DNA of 64,000 nucleotides, taken from NCBI GenBank assembly GCA_003194525.1, contig NBIV01000122.1:62001-126000 (forward strand). Reading direction: 5' to 3'. Each line of letters starts with the position of its first letter. The first letter of the stretch is position 1. Below are positions 2,277 through 43,999 of the stretch, piece by piece. The position numbers were made by a program, and so were the translations under genes. Source of the DNA: Gracilariopsis chorda (lineage: Eukaryota > Rhodophyta > Florideophyceae > Gracilariales > Gracilariaceae). The notes under the pieces were generated by a model. It saw nothing but the letters and a program-made list of their open reading frames with translations, searched no databases and was not told the origin of the DNA.

Positions 2277-3173
2277 TTACTGGCGATAGCGACCCATAGA
2301 TGGGAAATTGTCCAAGATGGCTCGGGGTTCTAACGCCACAGGCAGGAGTGAACGAGATAGAACCAATTCGAACGGTGACACTCTGGTGGTCCGGTAAACT
2401 TGCGTATTGTATGAAAATGTTAAGGCATCTGTGTACATGTCCCAAGTCGTGGGGTGATCATAAACGTAGTAACGGAGAAATGCCAACAAAGTCCGGTTGA
2501 ACCGTTCGATTTGCGCACTACATTGGAGATGGTAGGTAGTCGTGAACAAGTTTTTCATGCCCAGGATGCGACAAACATCATGGAAGAGCTTGGACGCGAA
2601 TTGCCTTCCGTTATCCGAGAGCACCTCCACAGGAAGTCCTTACAACAATCCAGTGCGTTACCAGAGCCTGGGCCACCGTGAAAGCGGTTGTCCTCCGAAG
2701 AGAGACAGTCCGAACAAGCTTTGAAAAGCGATCGGTGATCACAAGCAAGAACTTTTTGCCTCGCTTTGTAGTGAGGAAAAGTCCGAGAATATTGAATTGG
2801 ATAAACTCGAGTGGTGCCCTAGCAGGGAATAACTTCATTTTCTTCGCATTTTGCGGAACTCCACCCGAGTCTTCGAGCATTCGGTACAAAATCGCACAGA
2901 TGTGTAGCAATCAACCGCCACGGCGGGCCAGTAAGAAGCCCTTGGCAGGGTGAGGTAGAGCTTCTTCCCACCTACGTGGCCATTGAGCTTCGCATAGTGC
3001 GAGAGATGTATCACCCGCGACTGCAGGGAATGACGTACCACAATCTGTGGGCGAGCTTCGACCAACCGAACGAGGTAGCCTTTATCATTCACATCGAAAG
3101 GGAGGTATTCACCACCGTGTAAACGGGCACGAATCCTCATACAGAAGAGGTCACCGAATTGTTCTCGGATCAA
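2277..3173 (-). pseudogene. Integrase region of the decayed chromovirus
   Basis: The minus strand shows the zinc-binding N-terminus (HLSHYAKLNGHVGG, then FCTEC), a core containing LSDNGRQFASK and a C-terminal block with NTQVYRTTRVSPFELVLSR. The same blocks occur in the integrase of the 11967-23065 element. In an intact element this enzyme inserts the cDNA. Here it is a fossil with several breaks. Confidence 0.75.
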
Positions 3174-3199
3174 TTCCTCGTTTGAAACTGGTGCAAAAC

Positions 3200-4702
3200 T
3201 CCCGGTAAAGGTTTCTCAGGGTTCTTGCGGGATGCGAGTAAGTTTTCAAATTCAGCATCTTCATCCCAGTCTTCTGGCCATTCTTCGAACTTCCAATCTG
3301 GGTCATCCGGTTCTTCAGCCATGAAGCATGAAATGTCGTCATCCTCCGTTGGGGGTGCTTCCCCGTTTGTGGGTAAACGCGACAAAGCGTCGGCCTGAGT
3401 GTTTAGCACACCCTTTTTTATATGAATTGGATGTCATTTTCCACAAAGCGGAGTCTCCAACGCATGAGGCGGCCCGAGGGATCGGATATGTTCATTAACC
3501 ACCTCAACGAGAAATGATGCGTGTATATGGTAAAATGAGCTCCCATAAGATAGGGGCGTAGGGTCGAAAGCGCCTACACGACGGCGAAACATTCTTTCTC
3601 CGATACAAAGGAGTTCCGCTCGTGGACATTGAGCAAGCGTGACCAATAAACAATTGGTGTCCGGTCCCCCTCTGGGGCGGTTTGGAAAAGAGCACCAGCC
3701 AACTTGGTATTCGCTCGCATCCGTGTCCATGGAGTACGGGAGTCCCAGTTTGGGTAAAGGTAAGATGGGTGCTGACGTGACAGCCTCCTCTAAGGTGTTC
3801 AACGCTTCCAATTTCTCGAGCGTGAGTGGCCCCAATTTTGGGGGATTTCCTTTGCGTAAAAACGCGTTCAAAGGTGCCGTGATATCCGAAACGTTCGGAG
3901 TAAACCGTCGGTAGACGTTGAACAGCCCTAAGAAGGGGGGAAGCTCCGTTTGAGTGTGGGGTTCTTTAGTCTCAACGAGGGACTTGAATCGAGCCTTCTT
4001 GATCATTAACCGTCCCGGACGGATGATATGTCCCAGAGACTTGACTGTATGGGTGAAAAACTCGCACATACTCAGCTTGAGGGTAATTCTCGCTTCGCGG
4101 AGCACGGTCAGGACGTCCGTGAAATGGGTGAGAGGGTCATCCAAATTATTGGAGAAGATCATAATAACATCCAGGTAGACCAGGCAGCTCCGCCACTTGA
4201 AGCGGTTCAATAGAATATCTATTGCACGCTGAAAGGTAGCGGGAGCGTTGGTCAAACCAAACAGTATCCGCTTGTAGCGGTACCATCCTGTGTGGCAGGT
4301 GAACGCGGTCTTGTCGCGATCCTCGTGTCTAACAGGGACATGCAAATAACCCCAATTGGCGTCCAAAGCCGTGACCACGATAGGTTCTACAAGGGAGTCG
4401 ATGCACCTGTCCATACGAAGGATGGGATATGTGTCCCTAACGGGCACGGCATTGAGCCGGCGATAGTCGACACAGAACTTCCAGGTTACGTTGGCCTTTA
4501 AAGCTAGTACATCTCGGGATGCCCAGGGTGATTGAGCGGGCTCTATCACACCTGCGCGGAACATTTTGTCCACTTGGGACTGCTCCTCTTCTCGAACTTT
4601 CGGTCCTGCTCTGTAAGGGGGTTGTGCCCTCGGACGTGCACCCGGTAACAAATCTGTCTGGTGTTGCGTAGCATTAATCTCGACAAGCGAGCCATCCCAC
4701 AT
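3200..4702 (-). pseudogene. Reverse transcriptase-RNase H region of the decayed chromovirus
   Basis: Recognisable RT blocks on the minus strand include FCVDYRRLNAVPVRDTYP, ALDANWGYLHVPV and FGLTNAPATFQRAID, then a diverged version of the YLDD catalytic block (YLDVIMIFS). The connection and RNase H follow (LPYSMDTDASEYQVG). This is typical Ty3/Gypsy order. The family enzyme copies the RNA into DNA. This copy is broken. Confidence 0.8.
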
Positions 4703-5317
4703 CGTGGTAAATTAACGTAGCATTGCACTGAGTTTGTCGCCGTGTGACTCCGGCACATGGACTAGGTCTATATCTTCCACTGCCTTTATGGGGTCCACTC
4801 GGTCAGAACGCGCTGTAACATTTTCCTGTGATACAGGTGTGGCCATTGGTTCCGAGTTATTCGACATGTTCGACGTTAAAAAGACGGTTTTCTCCTCCTT
4901 CGTTGACGATAGTTTGTCGGTGGTGGGGGTGGGTTCCTCAGAAAAGGCGGCGATTACGAGAACGTCGGCGGGCGTCATTTTCGTCGGGAGCATCCCAAGG
5001 CGGTTCGGAGTGACGCTTCCAATTACTTGGGGTCTTTACCAGATACTGGGGGCATTGGCCAAGTACTGGTTTCTGGAGAGGAGCATCCTCGGTAACGTGA
5101 ACAAATCCGTTCGCCAGCGCGACCTGGTATTTTTCGTACAACGAGGACAGAGGTTGAATAACCCGAAGACAGTGTTGACGGCAATTGACTTGCAACCAGA
5201 CTTAGGACTCAGGCGGTATAGAAGCCCAGCGTGTGATTCGAAGTTTGATGGACTGGGGAGACACGGGCGGCGGTTCCTGCGCAGCAGGTAGTGCGAATTG
5301 CTTCTGCGAAGCACGCT

Positions 5318-5770
5318 TCAGCGGGCGACGGACGATTGGGATTGACGATCGATCGTCGAGTTCCACATGCCTAAACTGGGGCCTGATTGCGTCGACAAAT
5401 CTGTCGCAGTAATCACATCCCAGTATGACTGGAGCGGCCAATGACCGAAAAAAATAAAGTCAAGCTTCACCACGGAGGTGCCCAACCGCACGACTAAGTC
5501 GACGGTACCCACCGTTTTTAACCAATTTTTGTTCGCATCTGCGACGTCGGGAACCGTTTCGGAACGGATACGAGACCGCACCTGCGGGGGTAGCAATGAT
5601 TCCAAGATGAAGTTGGGGCCAACACCTGTGTCCAGGACTGTTAGAAATCTCACCACAAAATGGGTGTCAAGGCCAAGGCCGGCATAAACCTTGTAGTTGC
5701 GCTTGGCCATGAACAAGACTCTATCCGGGATCCGGGGGTTTTTACTCCGTATCCACGGGTGACACAGCAC
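5318..5770 (-). pseudogene. Aspartic protease region of the decayed chromovirus
   Basis: The minus-strand frame contains KRNYKVYAGLG and then LDTGVGPNFI, the D-T-G active-site motif of retroelement pepsin-like proteases. The equivalent stretch in the 11967-23065 element starts with the same RRNYKVYA block. It sits between gag and RT, as expected for Gypsy elements. Confidence 0.65.
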
Positions 5771-5903
5771 ATAAAGGTTTACAGAGTCCGTGTCAGTGGT
5801 GTCATTCTTGAAATAATTTTCACCGGGTAGCGAGGCAGCGACGCCTCGGGCGTCAACAAGCTCATCTCTAAGGACGCCTCTCCCAAAGGGGAGACTCCCT
5901 CAG

Positions 5904-8210
5904 TTACTTTACCTGGAAGAGTCCCGCCGTAGGCGGTAGTCCAGGATCCTCGACCACGAGGGCTTCATTCCGCGGGTCGGGATTCTTATCCACATTAGCG
6001 TTGTTTGCGTCGGACGTATGCGCGACTTCCCGATTCGGGATAATTGAAGCTAGCCCCGCACGCGAGATATTTGGCAAGTCATACGAGAAGTCCGTTTTAG
6101 CACGGATGTAGGAAGCCGTCAGAACGGAACGTTTCTCCTCTGGAGTGAGGGTCTCGTAATATGCCACCAGCTTGGCGATATCCTTCAGTGAGCAAAGACA
6201 CTGAGGGGATGTATGGCCATGGGTGTAGCAAAGGTGGAAAATTAGAGCCAAGACGGCGACGCGGCGGTTAATATCCCTAGAATCGGAGAAGCGTACCGCA
6301 GGGCGGGTTTCATTCCATCCAGGCCGTTGATAACGGGATTGAACGTTCATAAACCGGACTCGTGGTGGCTGAAAGCGATTGTTCCCCACGTACAATACGG
6401 GGTTGTCTTGCACTGTGTCGGACGTGTCCTATGTCGTTGACGGTAAGGGGTGATTGGTATAGACACACCATCTCCCTGTGCTAAATGCACGGTGTCGTAC
6501 CCCTGTTGGTAGGTTGTATCTGCTATAAGCGAGGGCTATGAGGAATCACTCTCCAGCAACAACGCCTTGGCGGGCTTAGACCCATGATTTGGAGTTCTTG
6601 CACGAAGTGCTTCCTCTTCCGCTCGAGCTTGCTGAAGAAGCTAGAGGTAGGTGATTCTCTGCTTGTCCCTCCTCTAACGAGTGACAAGACTCCGGATTGC
6701 CGGGTCAAGGCCATCAATGAACATGGTACAACGTTTCCATGCGTGTTATACATTCCCAGAACTTTGGAAGGCCTTGTCAGGGCGCACCGAGTTATCTGTT
6801 TCAGTCTCGCCTGAGCGCTGACGAGTATCTCGCAAAGCGAGGATTGCACCCTAAATGGCGGTATTGGTGGCATAGGAGCGCAAAAAGTATTGCACAGCCT
6901 CCGGCCAGCAGGTTATTCCTCCCTCTGAGGCACGAGATGATCCTCTGACAGAGGTTTACTGGTCCTCTGCCACTCCCCGTAAGAAATACGGTAATGCCAA
7001 ATACGCTTGTCCCTCATTCATTCTGAGGATATCGGCTTCTGCTACAAAGCGGGAAAGAAAGTCCAACACCATAATTGGGTCTTCTCGAGTAAAATAATGG
7101 TTACGCAGTGAGAGTTGCATAAGTTTATACACTCTTTCACCTTCCCCGTGCCACAAGGTGTACATCATAAAGAGGAATCTTCGAGCCGGTAGTACCGGTA
7201 CAAAAATACTTTCAGATACAACGGGTTCGTCGGTTTTAATTCCCTGAGGCCAGGGTGTCTTCTGCCCTTGCTGCATGTCCGAATCACACCTTGGGTAGCA
7301 GATGACCGCTTCGAGCGGGAAGAACGACCTCATTTCTCGTCCTTCGAATTGGATTCCGAGGATCTAGAACCATCTGAACCTTTTTGGGATGAATCTGATG
7401 ACGTCGTAGAATCAGAATCCGAGTGATCTCGTTTGGGTTTCCACTTGTAGAAGCGCTTCTTTCTTCCAGCGTGCTGATCTTGGTGTGATGCAGCTGGTGC
7501 CGGATCATCTGCGGACGGTTTATCCGTGAGGATAAACTGCTCTAACGTTTCCACACGGGCACGAACTCGATCGAATCGAGAGTCAACTCCTTCTATGAAG
7601 GTGGCGAGCTGCCCCAAACTCTCTAACATAGAGTTGACATCAGACCGTAAGATAAGGAGATCCTCTGTGACCACCTTTGTAGGGGTTTATATCATCACCT
7701 CACGGAGGATTTGTAATTTCCGCACAAGTTGTCGTGGGTGGTTCACAAAGCGTGAAACTGAGATTCCAGGGAATTTCCCTGGGGGGTGTTATCGCCTGTC
7801 AGACGGGGTTCAGGTGCGGCGGCGGTCACAGCCGGAGTCAGCTGAGCACCATCCACGGCATTTCATACCGGGGTAGACGTGGAGTTGCGGGGTTCCCGGG
7901 GTGGGTGTGAAGTCCTAGACGGGTCACCCCGAGCATCGCTGGATTTAGACCGAGTCGGGACCCCAGAAACGAACCGAACTTCGGGATTATCTCCACCATT
8001 GTGGGAGCGGCTGCGCCTAATCGCAGGCTCCGCAGATGCGGGCTTCCTCGACTTGAGGGCCAACTGGTACGACGGTAAAACAACGGAACATCCGAAAAAA
8101 AAGAACAAAAGAGAAAAACATTTAAAGAAGGAACCAAACACAAAACCGATTCTAGGTCTTCCAGGTGAGGAGACCACTTTGTAGTGCAATGCCCAGAAGC
8201 GGGAGTGCAC
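5904..8210 (-). pseudogene. Gag region of the decayed chromovirus
   Basis: The minus strand shows a coiled-coil-like N-terminal segment (FIEGVDSRFDRVRARVETLE), an acidic Ser/Asp-rich linker, a capsid-like block (FLSRFVAEADILRMNEGQ) and a zinc knuckle near 6200-6240. This is the same order as in the gag of the 11967-23065 element. 7680-8670 holds no other feature I can support. Confidence 0.6.
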
Positions 8211-9867: not shown

Positions 9868-10984
9868 TCACTGCTCACAAGATATATAGGTGTTTGCGAT
9901 TTGATTCCTCCCCATTGTGCGCGTCCTAAAGTTAAGTAAACGTACGTCCAGTTCAATTATGATAGCTCTTCTGTTGGAATCCGTTGTTAAGGTTGACTTA
10001 GGGCGACCAAATGGACCTTTGATAGCACATATACCCCACTCAGCACTCTGCCGTTCACTTGGCATAATGCGTTTTATAATAAGGTCTATGGCAGCCAGTG
10101 CTTCCGATTCAGGAATGTCGCGCGTTTCCTTCGTTTTTCTTGCTCTAATAATCTTTCCATTAGTGCATTTCGTGTTGTTGACAAAAGCGGAATCACCTAG
10201 TATATCCATCCCTGGAGGTGTCATAGTATCTGAAAGTTTAGGGTAGTACAGACCAGAAAGTCCACCAAGCCTTGTGTCGTGGCAACTCCCCGGAAAGTTT
10301 ATGGCGGCGTGTATTATCTCTCCATGAAAATTAAACACAAAAAGATTAGTAAACTCTACTTGTTGCGTGTATCCTTCGTAGTACGCATTCTGCAAATGAC
10401 GATCTCCATATTCCTGGCACTTGAAACGTCCTCCGTCTGTCACAGCAAAAACGCCTTTAAGCAGCGGACCAAAGTGTCTGTTGTTCTCCAAAAGTGCCGC
10501 AGATTCTTTCTGTTCGTCAAAGGACGGCCAGCGCACACCAAACAGGTCTTGTGTGTCTGCTTTTTTTGCTTTAAGAAGCACATGTAGGGCGTAATCCAGC
10601 CAGACCCCTAGTGATGATGGAACTACACCAAAGAAAGGGCAGAGTTGATATGCTTTAGATGAGGATTTCAAGTAGTACAATGCCATTCCCAATAAATCTA
10701 CGCTATGTAATAAGGGCTTCCTTCCTTGCGATGAAGGCGTCCTTCGATACGGAATATTGAATGTGGATTGTATGCGCGCATTGGAGAAAAGTGGAAGCAT
10801 ATCGTTGAGTAAAAGACTTTTGGTAAAGTTGGTGGTTATGATAAAATCTTGGTCAGTGCTATGGAGGAGAATTTGCTGCCATGGTGTTGGTTGATGAATG
10901 TATCTGGGATGTAGGAGGCCACGACGGGTGTGGTAAGCCGAATAGCGAGAACGGCTTGCCCGTTTTCGGCGTTTGGTTAATATG
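9868..10984 (-). CDS. Harbinger DDE transposase (DDE_Tnp_4 type)
   Basis: This enzyme cuts the transposon out and reinserts it. From the ATG at 10800 it is 310 residues. The catalytic triad is visible: D122 in AVTDGGRF, D203 in LGDSAF and E254 in RQSAEWG. HDTRLGGLSGLY lies between the two aspartates. The frame is open upstream of that ATG to about 10984, and the extra roughly 60 codons look genuinely coding: a basic patch (TKRRKRASRSR), HPRYIHQPTPWQQILLHS and FIITTNFTKSLLL resemble the N-terminal part of Harbinger transposases. No in-frame ATG was found in that extension, so the real start is probably in an upstream exon or was lost. Stop TGA is at 9868-9870. The triad region is unbroken. Confidence 0.85.
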
Positions 10985-11140: not shown

Positions 11141-11966
11141 CAAATCTGGCGTGCAGCCGACCAAATTGGTGCGGACTTGGCCTTTATATATTGGCTGACA
11201 TTTGACCGGAAGGCCAACTGGCGATTTCTGCATGCACCCACTGATGCGACGGCAACTCGCCGGCGCACTAAGTACCAACTATCCGTGCAATGGGTGAAAA
11301 AATAATAAATAAAATTAACTAAATTACTCTACTTTGGTGGTTTGTGCCCACTACTGTGGCGAACTGCTAATTGACTCTTCCGTTTATCCTGTGTCAAATC
11401 CACTATTAGTGGTCGTAGTTCATGCCATGAATATATTACTAAAACATTCGGGAATTCAACCAAGTACCAAGAATCCCTCCCTGAAAGCATTGGACTTCAG
11501 GTAGTTAGGGACCCGGCAGTCTCCGTTTCCATTTCGGCAGTATTTTCGCTTTCTGGACTCATAGTAGTGTCTCTATAGTCCTGCATTAGCCCTTCACTTA
11601 GCTCACGAGCTATGTACGAATTTGGTCTGAAGCGTAAGTCTTCGTATGCGATCTTTGGGATCCGACGCTCACCTTGCCGCTTGACTGCAGCGTAATGCTG
11701 TAGTGGTTGTACTATGACACCTGGTCTCCACTCGTCAGGCTCGTTTTTTTTCGAAGTTTTGTAAAAGAACAGCACTTCTTCCCCGATTTTTGTAGACCCT
11801 GGTGTAATGGATGAATGGTCGTGAGACTTCAAAAGTCGTTGTAGCGCTCGTGTGGCGATCTGCTCTGTGTATACGTCTATCAGTTCTTGTGTAACCATCT
11901 GAAGTGGCGCTCCAAGTATCGATGGGGCGTATCCCTTCGCGAGTTGGAAAGAACTCATGAGTTTAG

Positions 11967-12703
11967 TGTAGCATTTGGAATGCATTGGTATCGGTATGCC
12001 GGATCGTGAGCTGAGTGGAGGACGACATTCATAGTATGGTGCTACAGTACATGGCTGTCCAGCAAGGACTATGAATGTAACCCCTTTATGGAGGAATGTG
12101 AACCATGGATGGTAATCTGGCACTGCACTGCTGTGCATGGTACTGTAGTGGGCCGCCACTAATTAATTAATTATTTTCTTATATTTTACTATTATAGTTA
12201 GTGGAGAGCCACACATTTAGACACTACTGTCAGACTATTGAATGGCTTCGCAGCCTAGTAAAGGGCGACCTGCCAAGGTGAGGGAGGCGAAGGCCAACAA
12301 ACACCCTCAGCTCTTGACCCTTTGGTCAGACCGTCAGGAATCCTAAGTCGTTTACGACACAGGGGCACCTATAGTATCAGTACTTAATGATTTTTGAGCT
12401 ATAGCTCTTTGTTCCGAGGATATACTCACGTGTTTTACAGCTGACTGTTCTGGTTTGGCCTTTTTTGTTTATTGATATTGTTGTGTTTGCCACAGGACCG
12501 TCTGATACTCTTATCTTTTGGCTACGCTGAGTCTCCGCTCTCGGATACGCTGTTCACACACGTGACATTCGTACTGCTGGTGCTCCCACCTTGGCACTGA
12601 TCTTCTAGCCCCATTGCCCGCAAGGGAACACCCACATTCGTGGTTCGTTTGTGGCTTTCCACCCCGCTACCGAGGCCCTTACAGGCATTAGTGGAATACC
12701 ACA
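11967..12703 (+). repeat. 5' LTR of the 11.1 kb chromovirus
   Basis: It starts TGTAGCATTTGG and ends GGAATACCACA; the length of 737 bp is equal to the 3' copy. It is preceded by TTTAG. The palindrome GAGCTATAGCTC lies inside it. The internal leader 12704-13088 shows no further feature I can name. Confidence 0.92.
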
Positions 12704-13088
12704 TAAACTGCTCCCCAGACCTAGAAGATCAGTTTGCCGCTTTGGTGTGGTTCGGTTACTCGCTTTCGAGAAGTCTTGTGTGTTGTTCACATCGTCTTCT
12801 CCGGAGTCGGACTTTACTCGCGTTATTGATATTTGGAACGCAGTTGGAACCGTCGTTACGGACTCTGTTGAGACAGAAGGGTCACAGGTCTGAACCATAC
12901 TGTTCACTCGTTATATCAGAGATCTGAAGTTTGGAAAGTTTTTTTCTGTTTTGTTTTCTGAGTGCAGAGGAGTTGTCGTTGTCGACCTTGTTGGTTTGTG
13001 TCGATTGCGACTCTCTTTGCGGTACGTGTTCGATTTGTATTGCGTTTTTCGCTGAACGATCTGGAACGCCAGTGGGTATTCGGTGGTT

Positions 13089-15194
13089 ATGCAGACAAGA
13101 AGCCGGTCTAGTTCAGGAAAGCCTGATGCGGCTGGTAGTCGTTTAGCCACGTCTACAGAGGCGGGCAACCGCTTATATCAGCAAGCAGTGAAGTTGAGGT
13201 CGACAGGAGGGGCTGGAACACCTTCCGAGGTACCAAAACCCGCTGCCCGTGAGGGTTCGTCGTCAACGGACGTTCTACGTGCTGAAATACAGCGGCTCCG
13301 TGCGGAATCTGCGTCGCAGAAGTTCCGTCTGGAGGACATGCAAAGTCAAGTGAACTTGTTAGAATCGTCATTGGAGACGTTGAAGCGAGAGCAGATTGCT
13401 CTGAAGAACAGAAGAGATGATTCTCAGATCGCTGATGTCGTTCGGACAGTACGAGAAGACGTCAACCGCCTGATGGAAATGCAAGGAAACGTTTTGGATA
13501 CCCCATCGGCAATACCGGTCACTGTTGAGGAGGTCCTCTCACGCGGTAATCCTCGCCTGGAACGACTTGAGAACGTGGTGAACACACCTGTGCAAGCAGA
13601 ACGTTCCGAAGCGCAAGCGGTCGGTCCAACCGAAGCCCTTTCGAAAAGGAAAGAACGGAAGAAGCAGCCTTCAAAGCGGTCTAAGAAGTGATAGTCCACA
13701 AGGCCTGATGATTCTGATGAGAATTCGGAGTATTCCGATGATGATGACTCCTCTGCGGAGAGTTCTGAGGACGATTCGTCAGAGGACGACAGTAGTTCGA
13801 GTGACGAGGAAGAATCTCGCCACACGAGAAGGAGGAAGAGTGGTAACTCAGTTTCGTGTCTCAAGAAGGGACCTTCCCACCGGGGAATGAAGCGCCTTTC
13901 GTGTACGAATCCGCTTTATCGGAAGATTACCGATTATCGGTACTATCGATTACGCGTTCGTAAAACAAAGCGATCAGGTCGCGAGACGGGAAAAGTGAGG
14001 GATCACATTCGCCGATTGAAAGTTGGTTTGGATGCACTCACCTTTGATGGGACGGATCCCATACTCATCTTTGAGTTGTTGAGTCGGTTTGTCATAGAGG
14101 CAGACACTCTCAAGGTTAGCGAAGCGCAGGCGTTCGTGGCTTTACCACACTTTCTGCGAAGGCTCGCACTGGAACAGTATCGTGCTGTCAGCGGTTCCCT
14201 GAATGCAGATGATGGTGGATTCACCTGTTGGTCCGAGGCTGTTCAGTATTTTTTGCGTAGTTACGCTACTTCGAACGCCATTCGTGGGGCAATCTTGGAT
14301 CTCAGGGATGTTACCCAGGAGGATATAGAGACAGAGGTAGAGTACAGCTCGAGGCTGAATAGTGCAGCAATTCGTTGCGGAAATGTTCACAGTATGGATG
14401 ACAAGATGACGCTTTACATCGATGGGCTAGATAAGACTATCAAGTCACTTGTTGCCCGTCATCGGTAACGGCATCATCGAATTTGCTTCTTGGAGCTTAT
14501 TAAATTCGCACAGGCGGAAGGAGATGCGGTCCGAGCCCGCAGTGGAGTCGGCTCTGCAACCCGACGTCTTGGGATGTACACCACTAAAGATGCAAGTGTG
14601 CAGCGTGCTGCGAAGAGGGGCAAAGCCATGTATCTGGAATCGTCAGAGGATTCGCGTCTTTCGACACAGACGCCACGGGAAAGCCATGCGGAGCATGATG
14701 CTGTGCAGTATCTGGATGAACCAGTTGGGTCGATACCGACCAGGGATCTGCCTTCAACTGAGTCTCTCCAGGATTCTGAACTGATGGCTATGGAACAATG
14801 CAGGTATCCATACCAAAGAAATGCGGTCATTCCGCCCGCAGGAGGGATAACTGAGAAGAGACCCGGTTGGGTAAACAATCGCTTGGTGGGCAACTACCAA
14901 GGGCGACAGAACAGGGAAGGCCTGATTTGTTATAGCTGCGATGCTAGACACCATCTGTCGGCAGAGTGCACGCTGTCGGTCAGAAACCTTGGTCAGTTCA
15001 TCCTGAATTATGAAGCCCTTTCGGAAGCTGAACGTGCCCGTGTACCGGCTAATTCGAATTGGCAGGCCAAAGCTTGGGTTACAGCAGACGCCAGAAGCCA
15101 AGGGGAAATTCAGAAGGTGGAGCAAGGACGCGCTGACGCGAAGATGGGGAACGCAACGGTGGTGGTTCCTAAGCCCGCTCAATTGGGAAACTAG
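13089..15194 (+). pseudogene. Gag region of the 11.1 kb chromovirus
   Basis: The start MQTRSRSSSGKPD (ATG 13089) resembles typical Gypsy gag starts. A coiled coil (about residues 60-110, leucine-rich) is followed by a basic patch and a Ser/Asp/Glu-rich acidic stretch (about 13700-13820), a capsid-like domain (about 13990-14460, with LLSRFVIEADTLKVSE) and a zinc knuckle CYSCDARHHLSAEC near 14930-14975. The family role is the particle shell and RNA packaging. The region carries a few breaks. Confidence 0.75.
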
Positions 15195-15256
15195 AGGAGG
15201 GAGTCCTCAGGGGGTCGGTAAAGATCGATCCCATCTTACCGGCCGGGGTTGCGACA

Positions 15257-15979
15257 TTGCCCCGCTCCCAGGATTTTACACCGAAGGTCCTTCTGAGATC
15301 AGAGAGATCTTCGAATGTCAGAAAACGAGTGCAGCTCGACTGCGCTTTAAAACGCCCTTGGAGACGATATGTGTGCCCAGGAAGACGGACGGACTACGTC
15401 ATGATCATGGCCCGCAGGAATTATAAGGTCTATGCCGACATCGGCTCGTCAAAGTCTCTCCTGTCACGCACGCTCGCAGTTCTGGGCCCAATTTCATCAG
15501 ATTGTCTGAACTACAGTCTGACGAGCGAGCTCGAATCCAGGAGGCATGCTTACCGGATATCCGGGATGCAAAAAAGAGACTTATCACGTCTCTTGGAACG
15601 AAAAGTTGTCGTTCAACTCGGAAATCATGTTGTCATGTTGCCGTTTATCGTGTGTACCACGTTAACTGCACCAGTTGTGCTGGGTTGTGATTATTGTGAC
15701 AGGTTTGTCGAAGCAATTCGTCCGAAGAATCGGGAAGTTGAGTTGGACGATGGGTCCACTGTACCGATAGTACGGAGACCATTGAAGCGTTCAAACGCAG
15801 CTGCTCCATTACCCCCTTCGCAGGAATACGAAGCCCCGAAGGGCAGGACTTCACCACGTATTCGTGTGTCTCAGATGACTGTGGTGCCTCCCCAACATCA
15901 GGCTTGGATAACAGTTACGACTGCGAAGCATGGAATTGTTGTCATTCAGCCGAACTCGGCACTTTATCATACCCATTGA
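15257..15979 (+). pseudogene. Protease region of the 11.1 kb chromovirus
   Basis: This lies between the gag zinc knuckle and RT. It opens with a block like MIMARRNYKVYADIG and later has VVLGCDYCDRFV, both shared with the protease stretch of the element at 1125-8600. The family enzyme would cut the polyprotein. Confidence 0.6.
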
Positions 15980-16259
15980 ATATTGGTCGCTAACGGTATT
16001 GCCCAAGTGGAGCCCAACAGGCCATTCAAAATCCTGGTGAGCAACACCGGAGTCAATGAGTGCAGACTGCACAAGAATCAGGTTCTTGGGACCGCTCTGC
16101 GACACCCTTCGGTAGTCATACCTACTCATGTTATGACGGCAGACGTCTTGGAAATTTCACCTGAGAGTGATTCGCAGCCGGCACTGGCACAAACAGCGAC
16201 GAAAAACGTGAAGGAGGAGAAGGTTTCCGAGGAGGAAACTGAAGAAGCCCTCGAGGGCG

Positions 16260-17700
16260 TGAAGATGGAACACGTTCCTGAGGAGTATCGCGAGAGATTA
16301 CGCAGGTTACTGCTGAAGTTTTCACATATGTGGAATGGCCACCTTGGCCAGATCACTGCTACAGAGCATCAAATCGACGTGTTGTCGGGCACTAGACCCA
16401 TCGCCCAACTACCGTATCGCGCAGGGCCGCGAGCTCGACAAATCGAACAGGAACATGTTGACTCCATGCTGGAGAAAGGAATTATTGAGCCAGCTCAATC
16501 AGCATGGGCCTGACCCGTGGTTTTAGTTCTGAAAGCAGATGGATCGTTACGCTTTTGCGTTGACTACAGAAAACTGAACGCAGTAACAGTGAGGGATACT
16601 TATCCATTGCCACGCATGGATGAATGCATCGACAGCCTTGGAGAAGCCAAAGTTTTTACTACGTTTGACGCAAATTGGGGTTATTGGCAAGTGCCCGTTG
16701 CACCGAAAGACTGCGACAAGACCGCTTTTGTTTGTCACGCAGGATTATATCGCTTTAAGCGAATGCCTTTTGAACCAATGCTCCGGCGAAGTTTCAGCGC
16801 GCAATCGATATCATACTCTCACAGTATAAGTGGAAGACTTGTTTAGTCTATTTGGATGACATCATTGTCTATAGTCGAAACATGGAAGACCATTTCTCTG
16901 ATGTCGAGGCAATCCTCAAGCAATTGGATGATGCAGGAAACTCATTGAAGATTAAGAAGTGTGAATGGTTCACGAAGCAGGTAAAGTACCTTGGACACCG
17001 GATCAAACCGGGAACTTTGGAAATCGAGGAGACGCAGACAGCTGCAATACGTGAAGCAAAACCGCCGCGGACACAAACGCAACTACGTGCCTTCTTAGGG
17101 CTCTGTAATGTCTACAGGAGATTTGTTCCACGCTACTCGCATGTCACTGCGCCTTTGAACGCTTTATTGAAGAAAGGTGAACCCTCACAGTTGAAGGAAT
17201 TCCGGGAAGCCGAAACGGACGCTTTCGAAACACTGAAGCAGATGCTGACCTCAGCCCAAGTGCTTCGACTTCTGAAACCGGATCTACCCTTTTCCGTCGA
17301 CACGGATTCTAGTGATTACCAAGTAGGGTGTGCCCTTTTTCAAACGCACGAAGACGGTAAGCGTTATTCTATTGGATATTGGTCTCGTTCACTGCATCAG
17401 GCAGAGAAGAACTACTCCATTTCCGAAAAGGAATGTTTAGCTGTAGTATGGGCTCTTATGACCGTTAGGCCTTGCCTACAGGGGGTACACTTCACGGCCA
17501 ACACGGATCATTCTTGCTTAAGATGGCTTATGTCAATTCCTGACCCTTCAGGACGCTTAATGTGCTGACGGCTACGTCTTTCTGAATTTGATTTCGCAGT
17601 CAAATACACGAAAGGGACCTGTAATGTCCACGCTGACGCACTTTCGCGGCTCGAAACTCTGGGCAAAACCCAATTGGAAATTGATGATGACATCCCTTGT
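16260..17700 (+). pseudogene. Reverse transcriptase-RNase H region of the 11.1 kb chromovirus
   Basis: Ordered RT blocks are FCVDYRKLNAVTVRDTYP, FDANWGYWQVPV and the catalytic YLDDIIVYS near 16850-16875. The connection (LGHRIKPGTLEIEE, RAFLGLCNVYRRFVP) and RNase H (FSVDTDSSDYQVGCALF, SEKECLAVVWAL) follow. This is clear Ty3/Gypsy. It carries several breaks. Confidence 0.88.
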
Positions 17701-17899
17701 CTTACGATGGAAGAGCTGTTATCTCCAGAGATAGAAGTGGAAACTTGGGACGATGAAGATTAAGTCATGGATGTACTGATAGCACAGATAACGGATACTG
17801 ATGCTGATCGGCAGCTCGAACGAATTACGCTCGAGGAGCTACTCCGTGAACAGTTCACTGACGCTTTTTGTGCGGCAATCCGCTAACGTCTTAACGGGG

Positions 17900-18935
17900 G
17901 GAGGTGCTACCTTTTCGTCTCGACGATCGCGGAGTATTAGTTCGAACTGTCGAAGCCTATGTGCAGATTGTAATACCACACTCTCTGAAGAGCAGGGTAC
18001 TGCATCTGGCCCATTATTCTCAGCTATCTGGTCACCCAGGGGGTACGAAGCTTTATCTAAGCCTAAGAAGAGACTTCTATTGGCCAAAATTGGCGATGGA
18101 CTGCCACGCGACGGCTAAGTTGTGCGCAACGTGCACTAGGAACAGAGTGAAACTGTGGAAAAAGAAGAAGCCGCTGAAGCTATTTCTGGCGAAGGCGCCT
18201 TTGGAGTATGTGAGCATAGATATACTTGGGGAATTAATTCGCTCTAAGCGAGGAAACAGATACCTCTTGGTAATTACCGAGCGCTTCTCGAAGCTGGTGA
18301 AAACAGTTCCGCTTAAACGGATTACCGCTCCCGTGATCGCACGAGCTTTTATCCACCATTGGGTTTACTACTACGGACCCCCGGATGATCTGCTCTCAGA
18401 TAACTGAAAGCAATTTGTTGCTCGCTTCTTTCAGGATGTACGCAGGATAATGGGTGTTAAGAACGTGTTTACCATGAGATATCATCCGCAGTGTAACGGT
18501 CAGGTAGAACGATACAATCGCACTCTACTAGCCGCTCTCTGGCACTACATTTCTGACCACCCGAAGGATTGGGATCTGTACAAGGATACTCTCTGTTACG
18601 CGTACAATACACAGGTGCATTCGACGACGAAGTTTGCTCCGTTTGAGCTGGTACTGTCACGCCGACCACCGGCTCTACCACCCGAGGTTAGCTCACAGGA
18701 CGACGGCAAAGAAGACATGCCGACCCCGGCTCAGTTTCACCTCCAATGGAGGAATGAGCTGCACGCACGCGCTATGCAGGCCGCTAAGCAAATGGGAAAG
18801 GCCCAGGAACGGTTTAAACGCAACTACGATGCGACGACCAGACCGGCCATACCGGATTTGCAGGTTGGAGGACACGTCTTCATGAGATTGGAGAGAACTG
18901 ACGGGAAGGTGCCCGAAGAAAAGAAAGGAAACTGA
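17900..18935 (+). pseudogene. Integrase region of the 11.1 kb chromovirus
   Basis: The zinc-binding N-terminus is HLAHYSQLSGHPGG with LCATC. The DDE core is seen as YVSIDILGE, then LLSDN, then the Glu in CNGQVERYNRTLLA. The C-terminal block NTQVHSTTKFAPFELVLSR follows. It carries a few breaks. Confidence 0.85.
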
Positions 18936-19025
18936 CGCAGTCACAAGCTAGCCCCGATTGCGACAGGGCCGCACGAAGTTGTTGAATTCAACGAAGACAC
19001 CGTTTTCATCACACGAGGAATTGAA

Positions 19026-20303
19026 GTGGAGCGTGTTTCGCCCGATAGAGTGGTGAATGCACCTGTTCAAGAGCCTCTGGTGAACGCACCGAATGCTCCT
19101 GCCAGTGCAGATACCACGCATGTGGACACGGGTGAGCGGTTGCCCGCGCAACCTCTCCCAAAGTCGGAAATATTGGATGTACCGCCGATCGGCTACTCAG
19201 TGCACACACGAGTGCCACTTGGCATTCCATATTTGGGACACGGCTCCGTGTCACCAGAATTTAGTGAGTCACACCACGGCGCAATGCCTGGCGACATCGC
19301 CGACGTTGGGGCGACTCCCGTGGAGAGCGCTACACCTACCAGTAGCACTCCGCGCAACGTGAGCGTGTCACATGACGGTCAGATAACCGAAAACGCTGCC
19401 CGTAGCGGAAAGGACACGACCGTTCGTGAAGAGCCACTGCCGGCTAAAGAAGGTGAACGCACCGTGAATGATTCCTCGCCAAACGTTGACGTTCGTCAAA
19501 CGGAGGAGGATACTGTGATTAGTGAAGATATCCCGGAATCGGAGAAGAGAGAAGATGGATTTTCATCATTTAGTGACGCTACAGTGAGCGAAGCTATTGT
19601 GGAAGGGCCACATAGCGAGCAGAAAACTGTGTCGGCAGATTCTGTGTCTGTTGGTGCAGCCACCAAGAAGGGGATCACCCCAACCCTACCGGCTATTGTA
19701 AGCCCGGACAAGATGCCAACCTCTTCGAAAAGCCCCAAACAGCTAAAGACTGTTAGTGTCGACAGTACACAAGAAAAATCGGATCAACCGAACGGAAATG
19801 TTGTTGTTGCTAAGCCATCAAAGGCACCGGACCCTAGGAGACTAGCAGTGAGATACCATACTGGTGGAGGAACCACTTCGCGTCACCCCGCAGTAGAGGG
19901 ACTCCCACCAAGGGGAAATTCAAGTCGTTTAACAATGCAAGTCGACGCGTTCTCGCGAGATGTTCCTAAGGAAACATCCAGTCACAGGGATACTGTACGC
20001 AGTAATGACCCAACTGCAAAGACGCAAGAATATGTAATGGAAGAAATCGTCGATCATTATACTGATGATGAAGATCACAGCTTACGGTACAGGACCAGAT
20101 GGTACGGGTATCCGCCTGAGTCTGACACATGGGAACCCATAGAAAAACTCTGCCAAGGTCGCATATACTTCGCTATTGCAAGCGTTACGGACTGGCTATT
20201 CCAGAGGATATCAATTCTGCGATGGTCGGATAACCCCTACCGTGTGCAGTGTACTGCGTCCTCGCATGGACTCATGAAACAGATGCATCAGAAGATGAAG
20301 TAG
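19026..20303 (+). pseudogene. Integrase C-terminal tail with chromodomain, 11.1 kb chromovirus
   Basis: A long open stretch is rich in Ser, Thr, Pro and acidic residues and ends with a chromodomain at about 20029-20160 (YVMEEIVDHYTDDED, then YRTRWYGYPPESDTWEP). In chromoviruses this module steers integration by binding modified histones. The tail of about 330 residues between the integrase core and the chromodomain is unusually long and low in complexity. 20304-20476 is purine-rich and non-coding. Confidence 0.8.
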
Positions 20304-20440
20304 AAGAGTTATGAAGACATACGAAGATGAAGTAGGAAGCTACGAAGAACTGAAGAATTGAAGAAAAGAAGACAGAAGCGAATGGTTCGCATGGAAAAAG
20401 AAGTATGAGGGATATAGATTTCAAGTTTACTTGGATTCAT

Positions 20441-20476
20441 ACCGATAATCGGTTGATGGTCAATCTAGGTACCTAG
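20441..20476. repeat. Palindromes between convergent pol and antisense ORF ends
   Basis: ACCGATAATCGGT (20441-20453) and the perfect 12 bp palindrome CTAGGTACCTAG (20465-20476) lie immediately downstream of the antisense ORF stop and 140 bp past the chromodomain frame. They may be involved in 3' end formation on either strand. This is inference only. Confidence 0.35.
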
Positions 20477-22180
20477 TTAACCATAAGGGCTCATGTTCAT
20501 ATGATTTTGGAGAAGCTGCATCAACCCAGCACGATTTTGACCCTGTACGAGCATAGGAGGGAGCCCCGTTTCAATGAGGAAATTCCTCAAGTTGTCGAGG
20601 TTATTGTCTCCACTGCTTGTCGGTTGCTGCTGCGCCGTCTCGTTTGCAGCAGCCTGCTCTTCAGGATTGTATTGTGAAACGGACCCAACAGCAGGAGCTG
20701 GAGTAACTTGTGCTTGCTGCACGTTCTCTTGTTCCACCGGCATCGGTCCCTCTATATTGTCGAGATCGACGTATTCACTGTCGTCCATTTCGTCAACCAC
20801 GGGATCGTCGTACCCTTCCTCGTCATCGATTGCATCGGAGTTTGCCGGTTGCGGCTCAAACACATATCCAACAGGCTGAGTCATCGGCATCGCCCGAGGG
20901 TTTTCGCGCAGATGTTTAGCTGCTTCAGTTGTGACATGTTCACGAGTCCAGGGGTCATACCAGATGAAATTGCCACCTTGGTTACTGGTCCATCCAGGAG
21001 AATGGTAGGCACTCAAGGCCAAGTTGCCGCGAGTGCGATGTTCATTCGGAACTAGATACCAGTTAACTTGGTCCATAACATCTAGAAGATGGTGAAAGTC
21101 GGCCTGGTTGGCACTTAAACCCAACACAAGGGACAAATCGAGTGATCTCGCTAGCTGCCGTGCTACCGGCGTCATGTACCATAATCGATATGTGTCGTAT
21201 ACATCCCACAGGATGTTACACTCCGTCTTGGCGATGAATTCCGTGTAGGCCACGACCCAGTATCCGGAATACGGACTTTTTGCTAGCTCGGAGCCATAGT
21301 AGGTGAGTACTGGAGGTAACTCTGTCGAGCAACCACGAGGACTCTCGATGGTGTTCCAGTGAGCTGGAATGGGAACGTAGCGTCCGTTACGCGCAAATCG
21401 GCAAATACTGTCAATCTCAATCATTTGATATGGCACCAGATACCCGATACGTGACTTCGTTCTCCTCTCCCAACGAGGAAACTCCCAGTACGGAACATCC
21501 CGTTTTCGAAGAAACCAGAATTCGGCGCGCAACAAGGGTTGAGCGAAGCAGAGAGCTGCATTGTCGACGGTCGTGCGAGACCTCCATTGGCGAACGTCCA
21601 AGTTTGCAAGGTTCTCGAGGTACGAGTATGCTTCGCCGTTGGTACGGGCTGCCCATTTATCAATGTTCCAATCCTCATCTAGAGGTACGGTACTGATTGT
21701 GCGGCGCATCCGCCGATATACCAACCGAGTGAACCTCGTACGAGCCTGAACCATGGTCTCACCACGACGTCGCGATATCGCGTTATCTGGAAGCGCACAG
21801 TGCGTAAGCCAATCCTCGGTGTAGACCGCGTACAGCGGAAGACCATCGGGAAGGCGCCCCGCCACGACGTACTGATTGATCAGACCTTCATCGCGAACCG
21901 CCGCGGGATAGAACCAAGGAGCTTGGGCGAAGAGTGCAGTATGCTGCAGAGGATTCTTCCCGACCAGATCGGCATAGTGCGGAAAGTTCTGTACGCTCGC
22001 TGCAGACGGCTGATTGATTCGTGCAGTCGAAGAGAGGTAAGCTGGAGTGTAAGGTTGATGCCCTTGAGGCAGAGGCGTTGTCGAGAAAGCAGGTGCCACT
22101 GCGGGAGGATTGAACCCGGACATCGGGATCTGCATGTCGTCGTTCAACTGCGATGTATAGAATGGATTGTTCGGATTCAT
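20477..22180 (-). CDS. Antisense 567-aa orphan ORF inside the chromovirus
   Basis: This is an unbroken minus-strand ORF between the chromodomain end and the 3' LTR. I recognise no family. Seen in the sequence: a Pro/Gln/Asn-rich N-terminus (1-60), an aromatic core rich in Trp, Tyr and Arg (about 90-430, including a basic helix-like segment near 137-160), a strongly acidic patch (448-478), a Gln/Ala stretch (483-522), and a C-terminal segment (528-562, LRNFLIETGLPP then RAGLMQLLQNHM) weakly like a SAP DNA-binding helix pair. No signal peptide or membrane span is apparent. The start at 22180 is supported by the context TTTCAATG and a TATA-like box about 100 bp upstream. The stop TAA (20477-20479) sits beside palindromes. 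Antisense extra ORFs before the 3' LTR are known in some plant Tat/Retand elements; any kinship is unproven. A captured host gene is the main alternative. Confidence 0.8.
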   Translation of the reverse strand: MNPNNPFYTSQLNDDMQIPMSGFNPPAVAPAFSTTPLPQGHQPYTPAYLSSTARINQPSAASVQNFPHYADLVGKNPLQHTALFAQAPWFYPAAVRDEGLINQYVVAGRLPDGLPLYAVYTEDWLTHCALPDNAISRRRGETMVQARTRFTRLVYRRMRRTISTVPLDEDWNIDKWAARTNGEAYSYLENLANLDVRQWRSRTTVDNAALCFAQPLLRAEFWFLRKRDVPYWEFPRWERRTKSRIGYLVPYQMIEIDSICRFARNGRYVPIPAHWNTIESPRGCSTELPPVLTYYGSELAKSPYSGYWVVAYTEFIAKTECNILWDVYDTYRLWYMTPVARQLARSLDLSLVLGLSANQADFHHLLDVMDQVNWYLVPNEHRTRGNLALSAYHSPGWTSNQGGNFIWYDPWTREHVTTEAAKHLRENPRAMPMTQPVGYVFEPQPANSDAIDDEEGYDDPVVDEMDDSEYVDLDNIEGPMPVEQENVQQAQVTPAPAVGSVSQYNPEEQAAANETAQQQPTSSGDNNLDNLRNFLIETGLPPMLVQGQNRAGLMQLLQNHMNMSPYG

Positions 22181-22276
22181 TGAAAAAAGAAGGCACTGTT
22201 CGTCAGAGTTTGAAGCTTGCTTCGTTCGTGATCTTCGTTGTGAAGGAAAGGAAACCGGAAGACCGGAGGACAGACC

Positions 22277-22288
22277 GCTTATTTATGC
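22277..22288 (-). promoter_or_regulatory. TATA-like box of the antisense ORF
   Basis: On the minus strand the sequence reads GCATAAATAAGC, about 97-108 bp upstream of the ATG at 22180. The space between is free of upstream ATGs that I could see. It lies between the ORF and the 3' LTR, so the ORF appears to have its own promoter rather than LTR-driven expression. Confidence 0.5.
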
Positions 22289-22314
22289 ACTCTTGCGTGG
22301 CGGTGCTCCGCGCT

Positions 22315-22328
22315 AAACTGGGGGGATA
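22315..22328 (+). promoter_or_regulatory. Polypurine tract of the chromovirus
   Basis: AAACTGGGGGGATA sits directly before the 3' LTR start (TGTAGC at 22329). This is the usual place for plus-strand DNA priming. It confirms that the antisense ORF lies inside the element, upstream of its 3' LTR. Confidence 0.7.
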
Positions 22329-23065
22329 TGTAGCATTTGGAATGCATTGGTATCGGTATGCCGGATCGTGAGCTGAGTCGAGGACGACATTCATAGTATG
22401 GTGCTACTGTACATGGCTGTCCAGCAAGGACTATGAATGTAACCCCTTTATGGAGGAATGTGAACCATGGATGGTAATCTGTCACTGCACTGCTGTGCAT
22501 GGTACTGTAGTGGGCCGCCACTAATTAATTAATTATTTTCTTATATTTTACTATTATAGTTAGTGGAGAGCCACACATTTAGACACTACTGTCAGACTAT
22601 TGAATGGCTTCGCAGCCTAGTAAAGGGCGACCTGCCAAGGTGAGGGAGGCGAAGGCCAACAAACACCCTCAGCTCTTGACCCTTTGGTCAGACCCTCAGG
22701 AATCCTAAGTCGTTTACGACACAGGGGCACCTATAGTATCAGTACTTAATGATTTTTGAGCTATAGCTCTTTGTTCCGAGGATATACTCACGTGTTTTAC
22801 AGCTGACTGTTCTGGTTTGGCCTTTTTTGTTTATTGATATTGTTGTGTTTGCCACAGGACCGTCTGATACTCTTATCTTTTGGCTACGCTGAGTCTCCGC
22901 TCTCGGATACGCTGTTCAAACACGTGACATTCGTACTGCTGGTGCCCCCACCTTGGCACTGATCTTCTAGCCCCGTTGCCCGCAAGGCAACATCCACATT
23001 CGTGGTTCGTTTGTGGCTTTCCACCCCGCTACCGAGGCCCTTACAGGCATTAGTGGAATACCACA
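22329..23065 (+). repeat. 3' LTR of the 11.1 kb chromovirus
   Basis: 737 bp with the same TGTAGC...CCACA ends as the 5' copy. It is followed by TTTAG, the second half of the target duplication. Roughly nine base differences from the 5' LTR were counted by eye. Confidence 0.92.
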
Positions 23066-25355
23066 TTTAGATCCTGTGAAGCAATTCGAAAGAAAGATTG
23101 CCCTGGATAGGATTGTTTTGTCACTGTCTAGTTTCTGTTCCTGTTGTAGTCTCTCCAGAATTAGTTTAACCACGCCGTTCTTTAGCTCCAAAATCCCAGT
23201 TTTGTTATGTCGCCGAACTAGGCGCGGCTTGAATCGTATGTTCCTTCCGGCCAGAAATCCTTTCATATCTTGCTTATTGAATTCATCGTCCACAGAGAGC
23301 GATTCTGGTGTACCGTCTATGTTTAACCATTCGGCTTCAACAACCGCGATGCTTGTCCGTAGCTCTCGGTCTTTCATGATGCATTTTTCAGAGTAGCCTT
23401 TCCCGGCATCCACAATGTGCAAAACCGTAAACCTAGTGCCTCGGATAATACAGGACATGTAGTCCAATTGAACTTCTACGTTAAACGCCTGGTTACTGTG
23501 ATTTATCGATATCTTCTCTGATGGTAGCGGAGGTCCTGAACTAGCACAGGTAACGCAATTAGCCACTAGCCTCTTAATCTCAGTCGCTAGTTCTTTAGAA
23601 TTGTGCCCGGCTTTTCGGCATATCATCATACTCTCTTCAGTTGGGGCGTTTCGTTAATCGATTTAGTCGCTTGGCCAACGTCTTTGGCCTTATTTTACCT
23701 ACAGCCTTTGAAATTAAACCCCCTACGGTTGGTAAGATAGCCAGTCTTCCTCGCATATCGAAACTTGAGTCCCCAGAGAAGTAGATCGATAGTACGCGTG
23801 ATTCTTTTTCCGTAGCGCGATTAAGAGTCAGAGTAGGTAGGATGGCGCCGTAATCTGTAGTACAATGTCCTTTTTCATCCATTCCTATCCTAAGCGGCGA
23901 GTAGTCTTCAAGCAAGTCGAATGTAAGCTCAACCTTTCGGTTCTTCATGTCCTGTGTATACACATTCCATGAGCATACGATTGGCTTCGAGTTGATACGT
24001 TCGTGGCTCCATCCGTGTCGATAGTTTTCTCTCGGTTTATAGGGTTCCAAAGGAATGTTCAAGAGTTCACATAATTTGATTGCCGATGCAATCCTCCGGA
24101 CGATACTGGGCTAACTTCATCTAATATGGTACTCGGATGTGGGTCCGAATCTCTTATACAAAAAATGGCTTCGGGTTATTCTTCTTCTCATGATGATGCT
24201 CACTCCAATTCGTCTTAAACTTTACATTGTTCTCGTCCTTTGCAAGATTGCCGGTAGACGTGATCCCATTACCACGAATAGGTTCCTCCTGGACTAGTCT
24301 CGAATCGCGTTTGGCTGGTTACTCATCATCTTCTTGCGAGTAACGCTTTTTTTCTTCGTCCTTTTGTTAAACTTGTTCGTCGTAAGGAAGGATTTGGTGG
24401 CTACCTTTGCCTTTGATGCCTCAGATGCAGAGTCGTCAGCACTCTCTTCTTCTCTTCCGAATTCTTGTTAAGCCTGAATGTCATCTTGCAATCCTATACG
24501 AGACAACCATCATCGTTGTTGCATGCCTTACGGCGTTCCTGAACGGCAGCTTTGAGAGTTCCTAAGCATCCAAGCCATTTCCAAACGCCTTATCGTCTAT
24601 ATCTTTGGAAGTAGCACCATTAATAACCTCAAAAATTGTACTCACTCGGTCGGTCGAAATTTGCATCGTTTGTACGGTCTCGCTGGTCATCATTTGAGAT
24701 GATGAGACAGGATTGCTGATAATGTTCGCAAAGGTCTGCGTGGAAAGATTCGCATTAAGAAGCAAGAAGATTCCGAAGTTCGGACAAGCAGTTAAGTCCT
24801 GGTCTGAGTTGGTCTGGTTCAAGTATAGAAGGGCCAGTCCCACAAATCGTTCTACATAGTCTTCAATTGCTTCGCCAACTTTATGTTTGCAAGCATTGAT
24901 ACTTTTGTAAATTTGTACTGTTCTTCGAAGGCGGTTGACATTACAATCTTTAGCGACAAGGTTCACGATTTTCCTGAAGACTTTTCATTGGTCGAATTCT
25001 TCTTTGTTGTTTTTGGGAGCTATGATCGGTTCGGAAATCTTTGCGGCCTTTTTTCACAACTTTCTTTGAAAAGTCTAAAGAACGATACAGGATCATTCCA
25101 AGTGTTGCTACTTCACCTTGACCGATTATTTCCGGCAGCAGCACAGCCAATAAGATTTTCTGCCCATTCATACACTGCCTCTCTCCATTGTAACTTATCA
25201 GTGTCTGTTCGTAACTTAGGAGGAATGAATATGTTGCTTGGAGAGAGTTCATCCTCTGGGCCCATAACTGTCGCGTGGGCTTCTGACGTATGTGAGAAGT
25301 TCATGATTGGAGCAGTAGAGGGGACCTCGTTCACAAGCAAACACAGTTGGCACAA
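23066..25355 (-). pseudogene. Gag, protease-linker and integrase core of the split Copia
   Basis: Gag starts near 25355-25250 with MGPEDELSPSNIFIPPKLR, shared with the Copia at 52858-58332 (MGPEDDFSTNNMTTPPKLR). The integrase shows the VTCASSGPPLPSEK zinc end, VEVQLDYMSC with the first catalytic Asp, LSVDDEFN with the second and RRHNKTGILELKNGV around the third. The protease region at about 24060-23640 is recognisable only by comparison with the other Copias. The reading frames carry several breaks. Confidence 0.75.
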
Positions 25356-43462: not shown

Positions 43463-43999
43463 TACTTGAGATGTTATGACGTTAGCATTTCGTTTTACCT
43501 CGTGTTCTGGGACTGGTGTGTATGCATCTATCCAGTTGGTGTCGTGTTATTTCTGGAATGCCTGATCGAGGACCCATACTGGTGCAAATGCAAGCTCCTT
43601 CCTCGTTACCTGTTTACTCCCAATTTGATCGAATATGTTGGCGAATACCCTCTGCTTATCCAAAGTTAATTCCATTCCGATTGATGTGTGTTCTTTCTGT
43701 TCTTCTCTCTGTTTGTGTACACTGATGTCTTTCTGTTCCGGTTTTCCGTTTGATTTACGGGATGAAATCATGAGGTTATTCGATGGAAGCATATTTGTTG
43801 TTGAAATCTCTTCCTTTCTCTCTGCTTCCGGTGAACCGACTTCATGTCCTAGGGCGTCTTCGAGGGTTCTTTGCGTTAGTTTAGCTGCTAGCGGATGGTT
43901 AGGTACAAGGCGGATGTCCTCGTATGCGGTTTTCATTGGTCTGCCACGCCGTGATCTTCTGGTAACCACAAAGCTTTCTCTGGGATCAACGACTTCTGC

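Follow-up and report, generated by a model that had tools for sequence, protein, structure and literature searches.

A candidate antisense accessory gene in a chromodomain Ty3/Gypsy clade of red algae

A stretch of 64,000 nucleotides of the Gracilariopsis chorda genome (hereafter the window) contains a Gypsy chromovirus of 11.1 kb (11967-23066), in which an intact open reading frame of 567 codons, counted from its ATG, lies on the minus strand between the chromodomain and the 3' LTR (20477-22180). The locus raises the question whether this ORF is a gene of the element and, if it is, what the product could do.

The element and its antisense reading frame

The features of the element are listed below with the basis of each assignment.

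11962..11966, no strand: left target site duplication, TTTAG (read from the sequence)
11967..12704, plus strand: 5' LTR, 738 bp (LTR alignment)
13083-13691 and 14490-15194, plus strand: further pieces of the gag region (labelled by position; homologs in other copies)
13887..14468, plus strand: gag fragment, Retrotrans_gag PF03732 (Pfam domain match)
15257..15979, plus strand: region where the protease would be expected (assigned solely by position; Pfam gave no match)
16517..17568, plus strand: reverse transcriptase / RNase H, interrupted in the window copy (domain match and homology)
17904..18935, plus strand: integrase region, interrupted (position, homology between copies and, for the second piece only, a Pfam match below the cut-off)
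19026-20303, plus strand: sense gene ending in the chromodomain
20031..20150, plus strand: chromodomain, residues 336-375 of the sense gene (PF00385 match)
20426..20431, minus strand: poly(A)-type hexamer AGTAAA, 46 nt past the stop of the antisense gene (hexamer scan)
20477..22180, minus strand: predicted antisense accessory gene, 567 aa (ORF, alignment, structure model and composition)
22278..22289, minus strand: TATA-like box, 98 nt upstream of the antisense ATG (sequence reading)
22320..22326, plus strand: polypurine tract, a run of G immediately upstream of the 3' LTR (read from the sequence)
22329..23066, plus strand: 3' LTR, 738 bp, differing from the 5' LTR at 9 positions (LTR alignment)
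23067..23071, no strand: right target site duplication, TTTAG (read from the sequence)

Direct LTRs, a target site duplication, gag and the pol order reverse transcriptase (RT) - RNase H - integrase identify the element as Ty3/Gypsy. The LTRs can be aligned without gaps and are 98.78% identical. A chromodomain follows the integrase: PF00385 matched the sense gene with an E value of 2.3e-7 (31 bits, cut-off 25.1), and a homologous segment adjoins the ORF on the opposite strand at all 31 scorable places in the genome, a 32nd ORF hit being too near the locus end. Integrase was present in each of the 19 longer loci.

The open frame around the antisense ORF comprises 601 codons, as compared with 257 for the longest stop-free run found by chance in 30 first-order Markov sequences of 64 kb each. 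The three sense frames opposite the ORF contain 11, 25 and 16 stops, and the antisense stop lies 173 bases beyond the end of the neighbouring, chromodomain-bearing sense gene. The ORF is whole while gag and pol of the same copy carry in-frame stops and a frameshift. Of the nine stops that end gag or pol frames, two are shared by the three subfamily-A copies compared (subfamilies are described below); the other seven have no counterpart in the other two A copies, two of them falling at a gap in one copy. The first-pass annotation had described an unbroken 567-codon ORF, which the ORF listing of the window confirms, and had placed it inside an element with which it moves; the LTRs, the TTTAG at both ends and homologs situated at the same place in other copies bear this out.

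A similarity search (E 1e-3) found neither the antisense ORF nor a relic of it in the rest of the window. At 1308-7248 (minus strand) lie the decayed remains of another Gypsy element, which is related to the 11.1-kb one and includes gag and integrase pieces as well as an RT segment 65% identical over 84 residues. Long ORFs of 709, 401, 394 and 602 aa in 43547-50516 (minus strand) appear by eye to be pieces of more than one retroelement, and weak RT similarity to the 11.1-kb element was seen in 47497-48560. A 310-aa ORF at 9868-10800 (minus strand) resembles, again by eye, the DDE transposase of a cut-and-paste element.

Copies, relatives and signs of selection

When the genome (91.3 Mb in 1081 contigs) was searched with the window protein, at least 77 scored matches were obtained; with other family members as queries the matches numbered at least 76, 83 and 74, in overlapping lists. 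The search for further copies proposed in the first-pass annotation thus yielded full-length homologs elsewhere in the genome. According to identity to the window protein they were grouped into subfamilies A, B, B2, C, D and E. Subfamily A (86-100% identity) is represented by 5 places among the matches listed, four of which hold 2-4 stops within the ORF, the window copy being the intact one. Identity to the window protein is about 47-61% in B and B2 and about 33-40% in C, D and E, and representatives are 61% (B and B2), 56% (C and E) and about 45-50% (D and E) alike. Four further places among the genome matches perhaps belong to other subfamilies. At the places scored the ORF has the position and orientation of an antisense accessory gene, and far from being peculiar to one element, it is a standing gene of a many-copy clade. 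One of the queries (L029, contig C725, from 1159) was partly non-gene: roughly the first 90 codons of its antisense frame belong to an unrelated repeat, which also occurs in L037-L039, and matches from that part were ignored.

Outside this genome, nine protein relatives were found by a first search and the same nine by a profile search; the core segment of one of them, P0007, retrieved seven more (P0010-P0016). Four of the outside homologs are named Agarophyton chilense. In a tree of 18 sequences (alignment and tree made without P0004, P0006, P0016 and L012) two Agarophyton proteins fell inside the A/B clade with support 100/100, and C and E clustered with P0009 with support 98/97. As far as the protein tree tells, and horizontal transfer aside, the gene would be older than the split of these algae. 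No relatives were detected in viral and prokaryote contigs at the search sensitivity used.

A recent lone capture, or an annotation artefact, would be limited to the window copy. This explanation, for which no supporting point was found, can practically be dismissed, as it is refuted by the many copies, the several subfamilies and the sequences from other sources. The first-pass annotation would have recognized a recent capture by related elements lacking the ORF together with a single-copy host gene matching it. Related copies without the ORF do exist, yet they arose through a clean deletion (see below), and a single-copy host gene was not found among the matches listed.

To what extent the ORF behaves as a coding sequence can be judged from comparisons between subfamilies. 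Among representatives of A, B, B2, C and E, differences in the antisense frame were most frequent at third, less frequent at first and least frequent at second codon positions in all ten pairs. Values of dN ranged from 0.32 to 0.80; dS was saturated in seven of the ten pairs, and in the remaining three (dS 2.06-2.77) dN/dS was 0.155, 0.271 and 0.324, figures that are rough at dS above 2. Invariant residues number 30 when 15 proteins are aligned and 29 when 18 are. Over the same ten pairs, which are not independent, identity of the ORF correlated with that of RT/RNase H (r = 0.936) and of two integrase segments (r = 0.953 and 0.959), from which it follows that the gene travelled with pol.

Among young copies the signal of constraint is weak. 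The ORF gave pN/pS values of 0.68 in subfamily B, where three pol pieces gave 0.92, 0.38 and 0.93, and of 0.42 in subfamily C, where the pol pieces gave 0.12, 0.15 and 0.27 (pieces with a match covering less than 93% were excluded, so that the pol pieces are represented by 5, 6 and 6 of 7 copies and the ORF by 7 of 7). Variable columns at the three codon positions numbered 56, 34 and 52 in B, where a third-position excess is absent, and 22, 12 and 28 in C. The purifying pattern across copies to which the first-pass annotation referred is present between subfamilies and is weak among young copies. High synonymous values in the C integrase pieces are due, at least in part, to the mosaic copy L028. 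In this copy (C66:203000-212999) and in L037 (C102:249600-257100) a part of pol that is mostly 74-88% like L021 is flanked by sequence mostly 92-100% like it, as if template switching between subfamilies had taken place.

Signals consistent with a separate transcription unit were found at both ends of the ORF. All 28 copies checked, drawn from six subfamilies, have one poly(A)-type hexamer 46-109 nt past the antisense stop, in a scan that allowed five hexamer types within 250 bases and had no shuffle control, copies of the same subfamily not being independent; the type is AATAAA in B, C, D and E and AGTAAA in A and B2. At the other end, the TATA-like box reported at 22277-22288 is present but lies one base further on, at 22278-22289. 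By a count without shuffle control, the window copy and six of seven B copies have such a box between polypurine tract and ATG, the seventh B copy having no match to the tract pattern. In subfamily C the ATG lies about 57-59 nt from the tract pattern and no TATA box was found between them, so the C promoter may be in the 3' LTR. The open frame starts upstream of the tract in six of seven B copies and in both B2 copies; judged from the sequence, the true start of these is probably a later ATG. The antisense gene of A and B could thus be transcribed from a promoter of its own beside the polypurine tract, and that of the other subfamilies from the 3' LTR. L040 and L042 share a primer-binding-site-like stretch just after the 5' LTR, and that of the window copy looks different.

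Taking into account the codon-position bias, the descent parallel to RT and integrase, and the hexamer in 28 of 28 copies, the antisense ORF is almost certainly a conserved gene of the element that is under selection, and probably has a transcription unit of its own. It could be argued that the antisense transcript and not a protein matters, by pairing with the sense RNA and tuning copy number via small RNAs. The antisense geometry would suit such a role, and the cited passages of PMC7264820 discuss it for plant elements; however, the codon-position bias between five subfamilies, the 30 residues invariant in 15 proteins and the stop-free frames at 61 of 74 subfamily-C matches listed speak for a protein under selection and render this explanation highly improbable. 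An RNA role in addition to that of the protein is possible.

The protein and its parallels in other elements

The antisense protein of the window can be divided as follows.

residues 1-63: N-terminus, modelled with low confidence
residues about 65-440: Arg-rich, Lys-poor core
residues about 445-525: acidic linker
residues 526-563: C-terminal helical pair, as modelled

Across 15 proteins Arg makes up 0.81-0.98 of Arg plus Lys, and the conserved core is rich in aromatic residues and Arg; overall, the window protein is acidic, with a net charge of -19. The statement of the first-pass annotation that the protein fits no recognized family agrees with the Pfam and PDB searches. With the window protein nothing was found in Pfam at E up to 0.1, and with the 15 members nothing credible at E up to 1 (best E 0.029); three sequence searches of the PDB returned no match, no match and one chance match (E 6.2). 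Two AlphaFold2 models, made without the relatives P0010-P0016, were poor and mostly helical: one at full length with ten sequences (mean pLDDT 54.2, pTM 0.40) and one of the core only (mean pLDDT 53.7, pTM 0.47).

SAP, HeH and Ish1-type DNA-binding motifs have related folds. Ish1 matched the C-terminal helical pair in two of nine pieces (E 0.0031 and 0.13), in both cases below the cut-off; an equally good match was that of DUF6127 to another C-terminal piece (E 0.0024), and there were other scattered matches too. The Ish1 matches are a lead towards DNA binding and no more.

The customary threshold for a membrane segment is a 19-residue hydropathy of 1.6. This value bears on the possibility that the protein has a structural or transfer function, as an extra capsid, nucleocapsid or Env-like movement protein serving particles or cell-to-cell spread. 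Its size and its conserved aromatic, Arg-rich core would be compatible with such a function, and env-like genes of other elements use the position between pol and the 3' LTR, as stated in the cited part of PMC7264820. Two of the 15 members exceed the threshold (L012 with 1.85 and L019 with 1.65), whereas the other 13 remain below it, and the maximum of the window protein is 0.94, so that the hydropathy scan revealed no env-like transmembrane segment in it. Foldseek with the full-length model, itself poor, gave no PDB match and eight viral ones, none of them credible (best E 4.5). In a profile comparison with the elements' own gag, for which four sequences were used, the probability was 0.1 percent, and the proposal of a second gag was rejected on this ground. 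We consider a structural or transfer protein rather unlikely.

In flowering plants, LTR elements with antisense accessory genes have been on record since the 1990s, and the function and origin of these genes are described as obscure in the cited parts of PMC7264820 and PMC11963269. Plant Retand elements carry antisense TRP28 ORFs (Transposase_28, PF04195) and, like the elements studied here, are Ty3/Gypsy with an internal region of about 10 kb and a protein without assigned function; in contrast to them, Retand belongs to a non-chromovirus lineage, which the cited passages place in eudicots and Liliopsida only (PMC11963269). None of the 15 proteins studied here matched PF04195 at E up to 1, which separates them from Retand/TRP28; a genome search with PF04195 gave no match, but 14 controls were silent too. 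Another parallel is gene23 of maize Grande, an antisense accessory gene at the same place, for which transcription from its own promoter and nuclear localisation of the protein have been shown according to the cited part of PMC7264820; for the present gene both are predictions, and the two genes are likened by description. Outside land plants, an antisense extra gene, brtn, is located between pol and the 3' LTR of fungal Boty-like elements (cited passages of PMC8365987 and PMC7264820), a likeness that also rests on description. The nuclear product of the antisense HBZ gene of the retrovirus HTLV-1 (PMC11963269, in the part cited) offers an analogy only.

Among the papers listed by a literature search restricted to open-licence papers, none was on antisense genes in red-algal elements and none stated an antisense gene for a chromodomain element; Boty brtn is the likeliest counter-case to the first-pass annotation, which knew of none like this in a chromodomain element. 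What is known, then, is the antisense arrangement; what is new is a protein family unmatched in the libraries searched, the host group, the occurrence in chromodomain elements and a deletion derivative that has multiplied (see below). A different protein at the same antisense position in red-algal chromodomain elements implies that the arrangement arose repeatedly or is very old.

Loss of the gene in subfamily C and possible functions

Three relatives identified by their RT were examined for the state of the gene. It was deleted in two of them (L038 and L039), and in the third (L037) an inner deletion has removed about amino acids 96-459. The deletion in L038 and L039 corresponds to 6203-7974 of the full copy L021. 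It takes out the gene from its codon 13 to a point shortly beyond the stop codon, and its junction, with a 6-base overlap, is identical in both. For a 401-base query containing this junction, all 40 scored places showed a match along the entire query with 96-100% identity; since all these matches span the same junction, a single deletion event must have been multiplied to at least 40 places. The reverse order of events, in which the form without ORF was ancestral and the gene was inserted, was rejected on two grounds: the gene occupies this place in five other subfamilies as well, and the deletion form retains the first 12 codons and the 3' signal of the gene.

One deletion copy (C19) has LTRs that differ at 2 of 807 positions (99.75% identical), is flanked by a CTTAG duplication and has its RT within an open frame of 1875 codons. 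LTRs so similar show that the gene is not required in cis. For a full copy (C50) 4 differences were counted in an alignment of 813 bases that extends a few bases beyond the LTR. With regard to the ORFs and junctions listed, the 87 subfamily-C RT places (taken from 114 listed, the 27 others being left out) divide into 25 that pair with the ORF, 7 that pair with the junction of the deletion and 55 that pair with neither of these; for RT frames of at least 1600 codons the corresponding numbers among the matches listed are 11, 4 and 9.

These observations make it very probable that the gene acts in trans or is dispensable in cis. Dispensability in cis could also mean that the gene is dispensable altogether; its conservation between subfamilies favours trans action. 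The gene might, however, be a passenger, captured from a cell or a virus and helping itself or the host outside the element cycle. Such an origin would accord with the obscure provenance of the gene and with the spread of copies without it to at least 40 places. It is hard to reconcile with the presence of the gene in six subfamilies and its descent in parallel with pol in the five compared, with the old split indicated by the two Agarophyton proteins within the window's clade (100/100), and with the nature of the matches listed, which are long or many-copy and include no single-copy host gene. We therefore regard a passenger as rather unlikely.

The explanation that we prefer, and to which we give about an even chance, is a conserved antisense accessory gene of a chromodomain Ty3/Gypsy clade of red algae, whose product acts in trans, perhaps in the nucleus, in the manner of the antisense genes of plant Retand and Grande and fungal Boty elements. 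Expressed from the minus strand without need of the sense RNA, the protein would act in trans within the nucleus, its targets being the nucleic acids or the chromatin of its own element family. As a nuclear regulator it might raise expression or insertion, or counter silencing, and copies without the gene would borrow the protein from intact relatives. That many copies keep the gene and one widespread type has cleanly lost it probably indicates a shared helper rather than an accident. The specific proposal of a nuclear regulator related to nucleic acids draws on the below-cut-off Ish1 matches and on the analogy to plant elements, and is put forward tentatively. Points that count against the preferred explanation are the weak constraint among young copies, the stops in four of five A copies, AGTAAA in place of AATAAA in A and B2, the missing TATA box of C and the net acidic charge of the window protein. 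A bolder version, in which the protein is a family-specific trans activator or anti-silencing factor of a new fold and the gene-deleted lineage with long pol frames is a parasite of its helper relatives, seems to us somewhat unlikely.

Subfamily C amounts to a natural experiment, as it comprises gene-bearing and gene-deleted copies, and each kind includes young copies with long pol frames. The coexistence of the two forms in one subfamily makes the function and the trans action of the antisense gene directly testable. The near-identity of copies indicates that this subfamily has been amplified recently: L021 and L023 are 99.4% identical over 8459 bases. Open frames of 1600-1885 codons contain 24 of the 87 RT places of subfamily C.
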